18,286 nucleotides of DNA from an uncultured Ideonella sp. (GTDB lineage: Bacteria > Pseudomonadota > Gammaproteobacteria > Burkholderiales > Burkholderiaceae). The notes under the pieces are model-generated. The model was not told the DNA's origin. It was given only the letters and a program-made list of their open reading frames with translations, and did no database searches. The position numbers and the translations under genes are program-made. Shown here one piece after another: positions 9,068-14,268 of this stretch. The stretch covers positions 1 to 18,286 of the forward strand of contig CAMLGG010000089.1 in NCBI GenBank assembly GCA_946479475.1, read 5' to 3'. How positions within the stretch are numbered: position 1 is the first letter of the stretch; every line of letters starts with the position of its first letter.

Positions 9068-9222
9068 GCGGCCTCCTTCGCCGGTGCGGTCTGCCCGGCT
9101 GGAGGGTTCTACGCCGGGCGCGGGCGGCTGGATGCCCGGGATTACCTGGGGCCCTGCCATACTTGCCGGTTCGCATTCGCCCGGCCGGCTCGCGGCCAGG
9201 CCCCTTCCCCGTCCGAAGTCCC
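9068..9222. promoter_or_regulatory. Divergent region between the carotenoid oxygenase gene and serB
   Basis: This 155-bp gap separates two divergent genes. The minus-strand gene has its RBS (GGAGG, plus-strand cctcc) within the first ten bases. For serB the best -10 candidate is CATACT at 9158-9163, preceded by TGC as in extended -10 promoters, with no good -35 box. It would give a leader of about 50 nt containing a short GGCC/GGCC stem. No operator or riboswitch is recognised. Confidence 0.3.
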
Positions 9223-9930
9223 ATGTCCGCTCACGAGTTCTCCCCCGGCCTGTTCACCCGCGGCTTCACGCCGCCGCTGCGGCTGGCCGACTTCCGCCTC
9301 GTCGCCTTCGACATGGATTCGACTTTGATCGACATCGAGTGCGTGGACGAGATCGCGGCCGAGGCGGGCCGCAAGGCCGAAGTCGCCGCGATCACCGAGG
9401 CCGCCATGCGCGGCGAGATCGCCGATTTCAAGGAAAGCCTGCGGCGCAGGGTCTCGCTGCTGGCGGGTGTGCCCGAAGGCGCGCTGCAGCAGGTCCGCGA
9501 ACGACTGTGCCTGAATCCCGGCGTGGAGGCGTTCGTCGCCGCTTGCCGGGCGGCCGGATTGAAGACGCTGCTGGTTTCCGGCGGCTTCACCTTCTTCAGC
9601 GAGCACGTCCGGCGGCGCCTGCAGCTGGATTTCGCCCGGGCCAACGTGCTGGAGGTGGCCCAGGGGCGGCTCACCGGCCGCCTGCTCGACAGGCCGTGGG
9701 GCGACATCGTCGACGGTGCCGAGAAGCGGCGCGTCCTGCTGGAGGTCTGCGAGCTGATGGGCATCGAGCCGGCGCAGGCCATCGCCGTCGGCGACGGCGC
9801 CAACGATCTGCCGATGATGGCCGCGGCCGGGCTTTCGATCGCCTACCACGCCAAGCCCGCCGTGCGCGAGAAGGCCATGCTCTCCATCGAGCAGGGCGGC
9901 ATGGAGCGGGCGCTGGAAGTGCTGCGCTAG
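9223..9930 (+). CDS. serB: Phosphoserine phosphatase
   Basis: This 235-residue HAD-superfamily enzyme makes the last step of serine biosynthesis, O-phosphoserine to serine plus phosphate, in the cytoplasm. All HAD motifs are present: motif I 'AFDMDSTLIDIECVDEIA' with nucleophile Asp30 and general acid Asp32, motif II 'LLVSGGF' with Ser119, Lys168 in 'DGAEKRR', and motif III 'VGDGANDLPM' (190-198). The cap segment between motifs I and II and the total length match the short SerB common in betaproteobacteria, which lacks the N-terminal ACT domain of longer forms. ATG 9223 gives the expected N-terminus; a TTG at 9163 would extend it by 20 unlikely residues. It stands alone, divergent from the carotenoid oxygenase gene. 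Confidence 0.95.
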   Translation: MSAHEFSPGLFTRGFTPPLRLADFRLVAFDMDSTLIDIECVDEIAAEAGRKAEVAAITEAAMRGEIADFKESLRRRVSLLAGVPEGALQQVRERLCLNPGVEAFVAACRAAGLKTLLVSGGFTFFSEHVRRRLQLDFARANVLEVAQGRLTGRLLDRPWGDIVDGAEKRRVLLEVCELMGIEPAQAIAVGDGANDLPMMAAAGLSIAYHAKPAVREKAMLSIEQGGMERALEVLR

Positions 9931-10040: not shown

Positions 10041-11210
10041 ATGACGAACCTGGATCCGCCCGCCGCCGCCGTCTCGCGCTGGGCCGTGTTCCGGCGCGTG
10101 GTCAACCTGCCGCACGTGGCGGCGGTGTTCTATTTCGCCTTCGTCTTCGCCCTGTCCCGCATCATCGCCTGGCAGGCGGCCACCACCGAAGTCTCGCAAT
10201 GGCTGTTCGAGCTGGCGCGCTACACCCGCCAGTCGCTCATCTCCGGGCTGTCGATCCTGGCCTGCGCCGGACTGGCGGAGGCCTGGCTGGCCGGCGGGCG
10301 CCTCGGCCCTCGCGCGGCGTGGGCAGTGCGCGGCGGTGCCGTCGCGGTGGGGACGGCGTTCGGCGCCGCCATGCGTTACGCGATCTTCTACGCTCCGGAT
10401 TTCAGGGAGCCGCTGGAGTGGCCCTGGGCCATCTACACCACCAGCCTGTGGTGGCTGCTGGGCTGCAGTGGCTATGGGCTTCTGCACCTTTCCCAGCTGG
10501 AGCGGGCCAATCGCGAGCGCCTGGCCCGGGCGCGCCAGGCCCGCGAGGTCCTGGCCGCGCAGCAGATGGAGGCCGAACTCTCGGCCCTGCAGGCGCAGAT
10601 CGAACCGCACTTCCTCTTCAATACCCTGGCCAACGTCAAGCGGCTGTACGACGTGGCACCCGGGCGCGGCCGCGACATGCTGGCCAGCCTCATCGCCTAC
10701 CTGCAGACCGCCCTGCCCGGCATGCGCCGCCAGCGCGCCTGCCTGGGCGACGAGCTGGACCGGGTGCAGCACTACCTGGCCATCCTGCAGATGCGCATGG
10801 GCGATCGCCTTCGCTTCGAGATCAGCGCTCCGGCGCAGCTGCGTGACGCGGAGATGCCGCCGATGGTGGTCGCCACGCTGGTCGAGAACGCGATCAAGCA
10901 CGGCCTCTCACCCCTGCCCGAGGGCGGGCGGTTGTGGGTCACGGCCAGCGAGACCGCCGGTGGCCTGCTGCTGGTGGACGTCCGCGACGACGGGCACGGC
11001 TTCGTCGGCGCCGGCGGCAGCGGCGTCGGCCTGGCCAACACCCGGGCCCGCCTGCTGGCGCTGTACGGCCAGCAGGCTTTCCTCGCCCTGGAGGCGGCCG
11101 AGCCGCGAGGCGTGCTCGCCCGCGTGTGCCTGCCACTGCGCCGGGTGATCGAGCCGGACGCTCCGGCGGCGCCATTGCCCGTCCCGGCGACCGACGACGC
11201 CCTCGCGTGA
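10041..11210 (+). CDS. LytS-type sensor histidine kinase (intact)
   Basis: This 389-residue protein has about four transmembrane helices in the first 150 residues, a coiled-coil-like linker (about 150-180) and a His_kinase (PF06580-type) catalytic region. The phosphoacceptor is His190 in 'LQAQIEPHFLFNTLANV'. The ATP-binding domain shows the N box 'TLVENAIKHG' (Asn283), 'DVRDDGHGF' (314-321) and the G-rich 'GVGLANTRARL' (328-338). It should autophosphorylate His190 and pass the phosphate to the LytTR regulator encoded two genes downstream, as in AlgZ/AlgR or LytS/LytR pairs. The stop overlaps the next ATG by one base (TGATG). The signal it senses is unknown, and there is no large extracytoplasmic domain, so sensing probably takes place in or near the membrane. 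Confidence 0.93.
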   Translation: MTNLDPPAAAVSRWAVFRRVVNLPHVAAVFYFAFVFALSRIIAWQAATTEVSQWLFELARYTRQSLISGLSILACAGLAEAWLAGGRLGPRAAWAVRGGAVAVGTAFGAAMRYAIFYAPDFREPLEWPWAIYTTSLWWLLGCSGYGLLHLSQLERANRERLARARQAREVLAAQQMEAELSALQAQIEPHFLFNTLANVKRLYDVAPGRGRDMLASLIAYLQTALPGMRRQRACLGDELDRVQHYLAILQMRMGDRLRFEISAPAQLRDAEMPPMVVATLVENAIKHGLSPLPEGGRLWVTASETAGGLLLVDVRDDGHGFVGAGGSGVGLANTRARLLALYGQQAFLALEAAEPRGVLARVCLPLRRVIEPDAPAAPLPVPATDDALA

Positions 11211-12349
11211 TGAGCAGCGTTCTTCCTCGCTCCCTTCCGCTGCAGGCTGCACGCCCCTGGTGGGCGCCGCTGGGCCACGTGCTGCAGTCCTGGCGCTCGG
11301 TCCGCTGGTTCGAGCTGGCGGGGTTCATCGCATTGGGCCTGCTTTACGGTGCCGTCGACCTTTCCGGCCTGGCCGACGTGAAGCACCTGGAGCAGCCCTG
11401 GCCGCTGTTCTGGCGCCTGCTGCTTTCACCGCCCATCTGCACGCTGGTGCTGCTGCTGGCCTGGCTGCCCGCCGATCGCAGCGACCCCGCCCATCCCCAG
11501 CGCGTCCAGCGCCTGATGATTGCGGCCGTCCTGGGCAGCATCATCGCCGTGCCGCTGCTGTGGGGCGTGACCGAGCTGGCCCACTGGCCGACCTGGCAGG
11601 ACTTGTGCGAAGAGTCCAAGTGCAAGATCCAGCTGACGCTGATGCAGCGGTTCTCCGCCGACTTCCTTTCGGTGCTGCTGCCGAGCGCCCTCTCGCTGGC
11701 CCTGATCGAGATGCTGCGCCGCCGCTGGCGCAGCGAGGCCATGCTGCAGTCCCTGCTCGGGGAGCAGGCCGCGCTCAGCCGGCAGGCCATGGCCGCCCGC
11801 CTCGCGGCGATGCAGGCGCAGGTGGAGCCGCGCTTCCTCTTCGACGTGCTCGTCGACGTGCAGCAGCAATATGCCCTCGGCCAGGGCGAGGGCGCCGCCG
11901 AGCAGCTGGAGCGCCTGATCCACCACCTGCGGGTGGCCCTGCCGCGCCTGCGCGAGCAGAACGTGACCACGCTGGACGCCGAGGCCGCGCTGCTCGGCAG
12001 CTACCTGGGCCTGCGGCAAAGCCTGGAGCGCCGGCCGGTGCAGTTCGACGATGCCCTGCCGCCGACGCTGCGGTCGGCCACCTTGCCGGCGATGCTGCTG
12101 CTGCCCCTGCTCCAACGTGCGCTGCGGCTTGCGCCGGGCGGCCTGCCTTCGCGGATCGCCCTCACCGCCTGGCGAAACGTCGGCGCGCTGGGCATCCGCC
12201 TCACCGTGAGTTCGCCGGGCCTGTGCGGCGACGACGCCGACCTGGCCGCCCAGCGCGAGCGGCTGCAGGTCCTGGCCGGCGACCAGGCCTGCCTGCGCTG
12301 CGAGGCCGACGAGCATTCGACGCGCTTCACCCTGGAACTGCCGACATGA
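11210..12349 (+). CDS. LytS-like pseudokinase lacking catalytic residues
   Basis: This 379-residue protein has the same architecture as its upstream neighbour: about four TM helices (near 33-53, 66-87, 103-122, 149-167), a linker helix and a LytS-like C-terminal half. The line 'MQAQVEPRFLFDVLVDVQ' aligns with 'LQAQIEPHFLFNTLANVK' of the intact kinase, but Arg208 replaces the phosphoacceptor His and Asp212 replaces Asn. The N-box equivalent is 'PLLQRALRLAPGG' without Asn, and neither the DDGHG nor the GVGL motif is present. The frame is intact from start to stop with normal codon bias, so it is a maintained protein rather than a pseudogene. The loop between TM3 and TM4, predicted periplasmic, carries 'DLCEESKCK' (Cys133, Cys138). 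It overlaps both neighbours (TGATG, ATGA). It is probably a regulatory partner of the kinase; heterodimerisation is an inference. Confidence 0.88.
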   Translation: MSSVLPRSLPLQAARPWWAPLGHVLQSWRSVRWFELAGFIALGLLYGAVDLSGLADVKHLEQPWPLFWRLLLSPPICTLVLLLAWLPADRSDPAHPQRVQRLMIAAVLGSIIAVPLLWGVTELAHWPTWQDLCEESKCKIQLTLMQRFSADFLSVLLPSALSLALIEMLRRRWRSEAMLQSLLGEQAALSRQAMAARLAAMQAQVEPRFLFDVLVDVQQQYALGQGEGAAEQLERLIHHLRVALPRLREQNVTTLDAEAALLGSYLGLRQSLERRPVQFDDALPPTLRSATLPAMLLLPLLQRALRLAPGGLPSRIALTAWRNVGALGIRLTVSSPGLCGDDADLAAQRERLQVLAGDQACLRCEADEHSTRFTLELPT

Positions 12350-13113
12350 CGATCAAGAACCCGACCGCGCTGGTCGCCGAGGACGAATCCACGCTGCGCG
12401 CCGAGCTGATCGAGCAGATCACCAGGCTCTGGCCGGAGCTGAGCATCGTCGGCGAGGCCAGCGACGGCGTGCAGGCCTTGCGGCTGCTCGACGAGTTGCG
12501 GCCCGACGTGCTGTTCCTCGACATCCAGATGCCCGGCGCCACCGGCCTGGAAGTCGCCCGGCAGGCCAGCGGGCGCAGCCATGTGGTGTTCGTAACGGCC
12601 TATGACGAGCACGCCGTCGCCGCCTTCGACCACGGTGCGGTCGACTACCTGCTCAAGCCGCTGCAGCCGGCGCGGTTGTTCACCGCCATCGGCCGCGTCA
12701 AGCAGCGCCTGGGCAGCACCCCGAACGAACTCAGCTCCGTGCTCGACCGCCTGGCCTCGCTGCCCGGCTCGGCGGCGCCGGCGCGCCAGCACCTGCGCTG
12801 GATCAACGCCTCCGTCGGCCAGACACTGCGCCTGATCACCGTCGACGAGGTCCTCTACTTCGCGGCCGACAACAAGTACACCCGGGTCGCGACACGTGAG
12901 AGCGAAGCGTTGATCCGCAAGCCGTTGAAGGAACTGGTCGAAGAGCTCGACCCGCAGCAGTTCTGGCAGATCCACCGCTCCACGCTGGTCAACGCCAGCG
13001 CCATCGCCGGCGCCAGCCGCGACTTCCGCGGCCGCCTGCAGCTCAAGCTGAAGGAGCGCAGCGAGACCTTGCTCGTAGCCGAGAGCTACGCACATCTGTT
13101 CAAGCAGATGTAA
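12346..13113 (+). CDS. LytTR-family response regulator
   Basis: This 255-residue protein has a receiver domain (about 7-122) and a C-terminal LytTR DNA-binding domain (about 147-255). In the receiver, Glu12 and Asp13 form the acidic pocket ('VAEDES'), Asp59 in 'VLFLDIQMPG' is the phosphorylation site, Thr84 lies in 'VFVTAYDEHA', and Lys104 is in 'DYLLKPL'. The LytTR part shows the family features 'VDEVLYFAADNKYTRV', 'LIRKPLKELVEEL' and 'FWQIHRSTLVN'. It should be phosphorylated by the upstream LytS kinase and bind tandem direct repeats in DNA. The start overlaps the pseudokinase stop (ATGA), so all three proteins are translationally coupled. Its layout is like AlgR/LytR of betaproteobacteria. 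The genes it controls are not known from sequence; autoregulation is likely given the repeats upstream of the operon. Confidence 0.95.
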   Translation: MTIKNPTALVAEDESTLRAELIEQITRLWPELSIVGEASDGVQALRLLDELRPDVLFLDIQMPGATGLEVARQASGRSHVVFVTAYDEHAVAAFDHGAVDYLLKPLQPARLFTAIGRVKQRLGSTPNELSSVLDRLASLPGSAAPARQHLRWINASVGQTLRLITVDEVLYFAADNKYTRVATRESEALIRKPLKELVEELDPQQFWQIHRSTLVNASAIAGASRDFRGRLQLKLKERSETLLVAESYAHLFKQM

Positions 13114-13311: not shown

Positions 13312-14268
13312 ATGAAAGCCCTCCGCACTGCACGCCTCAAGCCCCTCGTGGCCGCCCTTTTCGCCGCCAGCCTCGCACCGCTGGCAGCTCCCGCGCATGC
13401 CGTCACTTCGGACGGCACGCCGCCCGGCTACAACGCGAACTGCAACTGCTATCGCAACGTCGCCTACGGCTCGACGACCTGGTTCGAACCCACCACCCGC
13501 AAGTTCGCCAAGCAGGTGATGGACATCTGGATGCCCGCGGCCATCAACCGGGCCGAAGGCGCCCCGATCGCCTACTACGGCCACCCCAACGGCGTCGGCC
13601 ACTACATCGCGATGGACACGACGCCGGGCTCGCTGTGGAGCCGCCTCGTGAAGCCGCTGACGGACCGCGGCTACATCGTCGTCTCGTACGAGTTCCGCCA
13701 TCCCGTCGTGAACTACGTCGAGGGCATGCCGGTGCCGCGCTACGACATCCAGAAGGCGATCAACTACTTCACGACCAACTTCGCCGGCACGCTGAACGCG
13801 GACCCGTCGAACTCCTTCGTCTCCGGGCAGTCGCGTGGCGGCGGCCTGGGCCTGCTGACCGCGTTGACGGGCTACTTCACCGGCACCACCAAGGTCCAGG
13901 GGATCTGGACCTACCAGGCCCAGACCAGCTTCAACTGCAACGAGATGGCCAAGACCTACGTCATCGAGAGCGACCGCGCCACCTTCCTCTCGCAGTGCGT
14001 GCAGGTCGACGGCGCCGGCTCTTCGCTGAAGGCGGTCTCGCCGTCCTCGCCGCCGGCCGTCGCGATCTACGACCGGCCGTTCAACAAGGTCCTCGAGCCG
14101 GCAGCAGCGGTCGACGTCCACTACCCCGACTTCGGATGGCAGCTGTGCAAGCGCTACGGCGCCCAGGGCCTGTCGGCGCAGTGCACGCCCATCGAGAGCA
14201 CCAGCAACGCGGATGCGTGGATCGGCATGGCCGACTTCTTCGACGGGCACGTGCAGGCGGGGATGTGA
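13312..14268 (+). CDS. Secreted alpha/beta hydrolase (esterase-like)
   Basis: This 318-residue protein has a Sec signal peptide cleaved after 'APAHA' (residue 30). The nucleophile elbow G-x-S-x-G is 'SGQSRGGGLG' with Ser174. 'YYGHPNG' (88-94) is a likely oxyanion-hole strand. Candidate acid residues are Asp254 or Asp268 in the region before the last helix, and His313 in 'DGHVQAGM' near the C-terminus is a candidate catalytic His. The early 'NVAYG' and 'QVMDIWMPA' segments are usual in carboxylesterases and feruloyl-esterase-like enzymes. The mature protein has six cysteines (44, 46, 209, 229, 279, 291), so disulfides are likely. The substrate cannot be assigned. The gene follows the LytTR regulator by 198 bp on the same strand and ends 21 bp from the convergent hrpA gene. 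Confidence 0.85.
   Translation: MKALRTARLKPLVAALFAASLAPLAAPAHAVTSDGTPPGYNANCNCYRNVAYGSTTWFEPTTRKFAKQVMDIWMPAAINRAEGAPIAYYGHPNGVGHYIAMDTTPGSLWSRLVKPLTDRGYIVVSYEFRHPVVNYVEGMPVPRYDIQKAINYFTTNFAGTLNADPSNSFVSGQSRGGGLGLLTALTGYFTGTTKVQGIWTYQAQTSFNCNEMAKTYVIESDRATFLSQCVQVDGAGSSLKAVSPSSPPAVAIYDRPFNKVLEPAAAVDVHYPDFGWQLCKRYGAQGLSAQCTPIESTSNADAWIGMADFFDGHVQAGM

Follow-up and report, generated by a model that had tools for sequence, protein, structure and literature searches.

A kinase-dead LytS paralogue encoded between a LytS-type kinase and a LytTR response regulator in Burkholderiales

Three overlapping genes in the Ideonella window

The window, by which we mean the whole stretch of 18,286 nucleotides that was analyzed, carries three consecutive open reading frames on the + strand. 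They encode a LytS-type sensor histidine kinase (HK), a dead paralogue of this kinase (PSK), and a LytTR response regulator (RR), with the following features.

10041..11210, + strand: HK, an intact LytS-type sensor histidine kinase (PF06580, 72.5 bits; HATPase_c, 32.8 bits, cut-off 26.4), with four predicted TM helices, a DHp part containing His190 (codon 10608-10610), and a CA part containing Asn283, D316-x-G-x-G, and GVGL
11210..12349, + strand: PSK, a kinase-dead LytS paralogue of 379 aa (PF06580, 37.1 bits, cut-off 25.2, residues 196-270)
11306..11719, + strand: PSK residues 33-170, four predicted membrane helices (AF2 helices 33-56, 63-89, 98-124, and 144-204)
11795..11959, + strand: PSK residues 196-250, the DHp helices (207-222 and 226-243 in the model), with the lowest column entropy
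11960..12346, + strand: PSK residues 251-379, a CA-like fold that is kept in the model and lacks the N and G boxes
12346..13113, + strand: RR, a response regulator with a receiver domain (Response_reg, 75.4 bits) and a LytTR DNA-binding domain (LytTR, 83.8 bits)

The PSK frame is open from its ATG at 11210 to its stop at 12349; it overlaps the end of HK by 1 nt and the start of RR by 4 nt. Two kinase-like proteins and one response regulator are therefore encoded together, which is the arrangement of the streptococcal FasBCA system. The gene upstream (9163-9930) encodes the phosphoserine phosphatase SerB (TIGR00338, 223.8 bits, cut-off 144.15), and the gene downstream (13312-14268) encodes an alpha/beta hydrolase of the BD-FAE family (36.1 bits, cut-off 26.8). 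Neither of these two neighbors was found at the related loci. A tblastn search of 115 loci with SerB and seven other proteins of the window's flanks gave no match at E 1e-8, although 31 of these loci are shorter than 4.5 kb and contain little flank. When the flanking ORFs of 30 loci were compared all against all, clusters common to up to 17 loci (upstream) were obtained, and none of those listed includes the window; many ORFs of these shared clusters are probably frame-shadow ORFs.

PSK and HK both score above the PF06580 cut-off, which places PSK in the LytS-type family by sequence, and the two proteins are 35% identical over 187 residues (E 9e-16). In the alignment, Arg208 of PSK (codon 11831-11833) occupies the position of the phospho-accepting His190 of HK, the N-box Asn column contains Arg303, and DxGxG and GxGL are missing at the G-box columns. 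PSK thus lacks the phospho-accepting His and the ATP-binding motifs of an active enzyme, and a Pfam search at E up to 1 found no HATPase_c match in it. A first-pass annotation of this DNA had described an open frame of 379 codons that overlaps its neighbors by 1 and 4 nt, an Arg in place of His190, and the absence of the N box, DDGHG, and GVGL; the ORF coordinates and the alignment bear out each of these points. The annotation "histidine kinase" of genes of this kind at such loci calls for caution, as their products are probably not enzymes.

The AF2 model of HK has a pLDDT of 87.7, and model comparison indicated that HK and PSK have a common layout and, among the PDB matches named, the same best structural relative, GanS. 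To judge from their length and hydrophobicity, the four PSK helices would span the membrane, and the last of them (144-204) continues into DHp. The CA-like part of PSK has conserved motifs of its own, namely LLLPLLQRALR, LCGDDAEL, Cys339 (12224-12226), and Cys364 (12299-12301).

Conservation of the dead paralogue and of the triplet

A protein search with PSK returned 294 homologues, the best 120 of which have identities from 95% downwards, and their source names include Ideonella, Roseateles, Pelomonas, Vitreoscilla, and Piscinibacter. (The homologue lists used here comprise the best 120 of 294, 27 of 27, and the best 120 of 208, each drawn from ~8000 scored candidates.) We aligned the window PSK with 119 of the best 120 (alignment A3), excluding P0041, a 264-residue piece. 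Among the matches listed and the window protein, the His column contains Q in 63 rows, R in 22, A in 13, E in 10, H in 8, T in 3, and K in 1. The position four residues further on, which is Asn in kinases, contains D in 103 rows, E in 11, N in 3, K in 2, and H in 1 of the same set. The N-box Asn column is R in 114 rows, G in 2, and L, T, Q, and A in 1 each, so that Asn is found there in none of the 119 aligned homologues among the matches listed. DxGxG does not occur within the last 140 residues of any of these 120 rows; a GxGL string is present elsewhere in that stretch in 16 of the 120 listed rows and was not taken as a G box. The dead CA domain is a feature common to all 120 rows.

Because the His column drifts among the homologues, the Arg in the window is incidental, and we rejected Arg208 as a meaningful substitution and as a signature of the protein. 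The first-pass annotation had treated orthologues that keep the His and Asn residues as evidence against its reading. Such retention is seen for the His, which is present in 8 of the 120 listed rows (two of these proteins are 91% identical to the window PSK), but not for the N-box Asn.

We also aligned 157 kinase-like rows, which were classed by their similarity to P0001 or P0002 (two rows from locus L114 were moved to the PSK class by their residues). The H, N, D, and G residues are present in each of the 104 HK rows. The 53 PSK rows include two pieces of one split gene, the L020 gene cut by a contig end, and 12 CA-less rows (two of them, L112 and P0124, are the same protein); not one of the 53 has the H, the N of the N box, or the D of the G1 box. 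This split between the classes exceeds chance. These counts bear on the proposal that PSK takes phosphate from HK, as FasC does in the model of the FasBCA authors. A His is available for this purpose in the eight rows mentioned, but the other 112 of the 120 listed rows, including that of the window, lack it, as do all 53 rows from PSK loci or CA-less proteins. We consider phosphate transfer to PSK highly improbable, and phosphorylation of the dead partner in the manner of FasB and FasC is impossible for most PSKs because they have no phospho-His.

In a scan of genome contigs, 80 loci were kept. An intact kinase is followed by a dead paralogue in 24 of them (L001-L023 and L025), and the regulator comes next in 23 of these; the remaining locus, L020, ends at the contig end. 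The order at L044 is RR-HK-PSK (L115, another contig stretch than L044, was left out), and the other loci of the 80 contain ordinary kinases, mostly with a regulator. Many of the Oxalobacteraceae contigs among L026-L077 stop ~1 kb away from the gene of an ordinary LytS kinase, a pattern that an adjoining, assembly-breaking repeat would produce.

Among 299 related genomes, all from one family, PSK was found in 24; it is full-length in 21 (E up to 1e-122), split between two frames in 1, and CA-less in 2. A separate search for close orthologues of RR, at a cut of E up to 1e-90 that was our own choice, gave 24 of the 299 genomes, and these are the same 24. HK overlaps PSK by 4 nt at 35 of 36 loci and by 1 nt at the remaining one, and an alternative start of the window PSK, an in-frame GTG at 11207, would make the overlap 4 nt in the window as well. 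PSK overlaps RR by 4 nt at 24 of 35 regulator-bearing loci; at nine others, the two genes are listed as either 2-78 nt apart or overlapping by 1 nt. The 24 scanned loci and the 299-genome searches exclude a strain-specific loss or a sequencing error, and the triplet of kinase, pseudokinase, and LytTR regulator, fixed in 24 of 299 genomes, sustains the first-pass view that the pseudokinase is maintained. It suggests a three-part rather than a two-part signaling switch. Plasmid records contained no match. One apparent fusion of PSK to the regulator (P0264) reads like a frameshift into the next gene and was dropped as evidence.

Median NG86 dN/dS values over 17 locus pairs were 0.25 for HK, 0.30 for PSK, and 0.08 for RR; for PSK, the five closest pairs gave 0.09-0.15 and the pair L081/L091 gave the maximum, 0.88, with dS probably underestimated for distant pairs of these GC-rich genes. 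The selection on PSK is purifying. A dN/dS near 1 with frequent disruption, which the earlier annotation had named as evidence against it, was not observed, as only one of the 24 genomes has a disrupted copy. Mean distances were highest for PSK (0.94, compared with 0.59 and 0.29 for the other two genes), indicating that PSK evolves fastest. If PSK were a functionless duplicate in decay, the loss of its catalytic residues, its faster evolution, the split copy, and the pair at 0.88 would all be accounted for. Against this, PSK is present in 24 of 24 regulator-bearing genomes, its closest pairs have low dN/dS, and a CA-less form is conserved over 10 proteins (see below); we give simple decay very little credence.

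Within PSK, the column entropies in A3 (among the matches listed) are 0.87 bits for DHp, 1.60 for CA, and 1.91 for TM, and DHp is thus the best conserved part. At 27 matched loci the values are 0.80, 1.58, and 1.81 bits for DHp, CA, and TM of PSK and 0.46, 0.81, and 1.60 bits for those of HK, so that, of the three parts, CA shows the greatest relaxation in PSK when compared with HK.

CA-less forms, a second branch, and the tree

The middle genes of L111 and L112, the two CA-less cases among the 299 genomes, encode proteins of 231 and 247 residues that stop after or within the DHp helices (that of L111 was identified by reading ORFs). At L111 the overlaps are 4 nt on both sides; at L112 the overlap with the kinase is 4 nt and the regulator lies ~20 nt downstream. 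The L112 protein has nine further relatives in the database, of 236-250 residues and 55-89% identity (10 proteins at 55-100%), and judged by this conservation the short form is itself maintained. L177, from a more distant genome, is also a triplet, in which the gene between HK and RR encodes a TM+DHp-only protein (234-236 aa, depending on the start) and overlaps the regulator gene by 4 nt. At all three loci CA is gone and the middle gene still lies between HK and RR. They probably represent two losses, because in the tree the L111 kinase is sister to the L112 kinase.

All 10 CA-less proteins (P0124-P0133) and the L111 protein (L111:4853-5548) have a Cys-x-x-Cys motif in the stretch ahead of their last TM helix, and in the window PSK this stretch contains a pair of Cys, four residues apart (CEESKC). 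To judge from the topology, the stretch may form an extracytoplasmic loop that senses redox state or metals; the motif in the CA-less forms hints at sensing by PSK.

The CA-less forms also bear on the proposal that the degenerate CA domain has been put to a new use, for example the binding of a different ligand or redox sensing through Cys339 and Cys364, and feeds a cytoplasmic signal to the kinase. The predicted retention of the CA fold and its conserved motifs would fit such a role, as would the presence of Cys339 in 117 and of Cys364 in 119 of 120 A3 rows (among the matches listed). However, relatives at the same place in the operon lack the whole domain, and CA is less conserved than DHp, so that we regard a new CA function as improbable.

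A second, distant branch is represented by L114 (Rivibacter subsaxonicus by source names), an HK-PSK-HK-PSK-RR array in which Val and Met occupy the His column. The array lies directly upstream of a gene that by eye resembles a TonB-dependent receptor gene. A search with one of the L114 PSKs returned 208 homologues; none of the best 120 has the His or the N-box Asn, and DxGxG is retained in 23 of them. One DxGxG-bearing protein, P0225 (Casimicrobiaceae), has a sub-threshold HATPase_c match. When 399 genomes were searched with this branch (A5) at E up to 1e-55, 23 of them matched; the ORFs examined in 20 of these are ordinary kinases with His and Asn, and the other three are G130, G017, and G336.

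In a tree of 77 rows, from which the catalytic columns were removed and L177 is absent, all 35 HKs group together (97/82), the window PSK lineage forms a second group (100/100), and the second branch forms a third (99/87). The 19 HKs that are accompanied by a PSK form one group inside the HKs (99/97). One state change explains the labels and the PSK branches are long; the tree is compatible with a single origin of PSK without proving it. The kinase of L043, whose record is titled Mycobacteriaceae, groups with Burkholderiales kinases, and its contig is probably misassigned.

A probable dimer-partner role, its rival, and known systems

PSK is most simply a dimer partner of HK, because DHp is its best kept part, CA can be dropped, and an intact paralogue of the same layout adjoins it; a dimer partner is favored over an ATP-binding decoy because CA is lost while the gene is kept and DHp is conserved. 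The explanation that we consider probable is a three-component LytTR system in which PSK is a membrane sensor and dimerization subunit that pairs with HK and sets its activity. The TM and DHp helices of PSK would pair with those of HK, and the resulting asymmetric heterodimer would have a single working CA domain and, for the window proteins, a single phospho-His. Signals felt by PSK would raise or lower the activity of HK toward RR, the sensing and the sign of control being inferred. With a PSK that has no His, the phosphate would have to sit on the true kinase, and the heterodimer would either phosphorylate HK in cis or be inhibitory; its activity would depend on whether HK is phosphorylated in cis or in trans.

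The co-occurrence of PSK and RR in the same genomes, the gene overlaps, the purifying selection, and the common layout and GanS likeness of HK and PSK count for this explanation, as does the precedent of FasC, for which the excerpted report states that the TM+DHp part suffices and that FasC interacts with FasB in a two-hybrid assay (PMC12675982). The correlation of PSK and HK distances given RR, 0.75 (0 of 2000 permutations were as high), points the same way. The corresponding values are 0.48 for PSK and RR given HK and 0.13 for HK and RR given PSK; these two count against the explanation and would also fit binding to the regulator. Taken together, the correlations support pairing with HK weakly, because PSK, as the fastest-evolving protein, carries most of the signal. 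The rate of PSK evolution and the pair at 0.88 also count against a partner of HK, and the predicted CA fold of the full-length PSK, with its own conserved residues, argues against a pure TM+DHp partner.

The DHp of kinases also carries the surface on which the regulator docks. The main rival explanation makes PSK an anchor or sink that ties RR to the membrane: as a homodimer, it would dock the receiver on its DHp and hold it inactive until a signal arrives, like the inhibitors of LytTR Regulatory Systems (LRS). DHp is indeed the conserved part of PSK, the regulator is present in every PSK genome of the 299-genome set, PSK and RR distances correlate, and membrane inhibitors of LytTR-family regulators exist (PMC6193735, in excerpt). 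However, an intact kinase that is paralogous to PSK and laid out in the same way stands beside it in every case, the correlation with HK is higher than that with RR, and known LRS inhibitors are not kinase-like; a sink for RR is therefore unlikely.

Histidine kinases are usually described as homodimers. Extending the dimer-partner explanation to Burkholderiales and their relatives, we propose tentatively, at somewhat less than even confidence, that HK and its dead paralogue are co-inherited as an obligate asymmetric receptor whose working unit is a heterodimer with a single active site and not a kinase homodimer. The dead partner would have decayed in stages, first the His and Asn, later the G boxes, and in some lineages the whole CA, with TM and DHp remaining under selection. 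If this is true, comparison of the full-length, partly decayed, and CA-less versions would make it possible to ask how the two halves of a kinase dimer contribute, and a natural dead partner beside its kinase would offer a handle on pseudokinase evolution in two-component signaling.

Several known systems invite comparison. DivL of Caulobacter is not known to be of the PF06580 type or to be encoded with a LytTR regulator in a three-gene operon, RetS/GacS has a domain make-up other than that of the window proteins, and the Fas kinases are of the AgrC/ComD type and are not known to belong to PF06580. DivL (PMC4211667, in excerpt; PDB 4q20) was included as a comparison, and RetS/GacS of Pseudomonas aeruginosa is described in an excerpted account as a heterodimer of kinases in which one inhibits the other (PMC12675982; PDB 7n0e). 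According to the excerpted report, ChrS of Corynebacterium glutamicum is a CA-dead kinase that heterodimerizes with its paralogue HrrS and alters the output; it arose by a frameshift in laboratory evolution, whereas PSK is a natural conserved gene (PMC9491836). BtsS/BtsR and YpdA/YpdB each combine a LytS-type kinase with a LytTR regulator, like HK and RR, but the excerpted description of them includes no dead paralogue (PMC5552118). In LRS such as HdrRM, a transmembrane protein controls the LytTR-family regulator of the same operon; as excerpted, an LRS operon has no kinase, whereas the window has an intact kinase and an RR with a receiver domain and is not an LRS (PMC6193735).

The closest known system is FasBCA of streptococci, and three-component systems with a proposed pseudokinase are already known. 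According to the excerpted report, FasBCA of group A Streptococcus comprises two sensor-kinase-like membrane proteins and one ComE-like regulator; FasC is the proposed pseudokinase and can dispense with its kinase domain, and a two-hybrid assay showed interaction between FasB and FasC but no self-interaction of either (PMC12675982). The same excerpts point to differences: FasC needs its H246, at whose position the window PSK carries Arg208 and a His is found in 8 of 120 rows (among the matches listed), and FasBCA is a Gram-positive system whose kinases have six predicted TM segments compared with four in the window proteins (PMC12675982). We found no report of a LytS-family pseudokinase triplet in the open-access PMC literature (most subscription papers fall outside this scope), which suggests that, relative to this literature, the LytS-family version of a pseudokinase three-component system is new.
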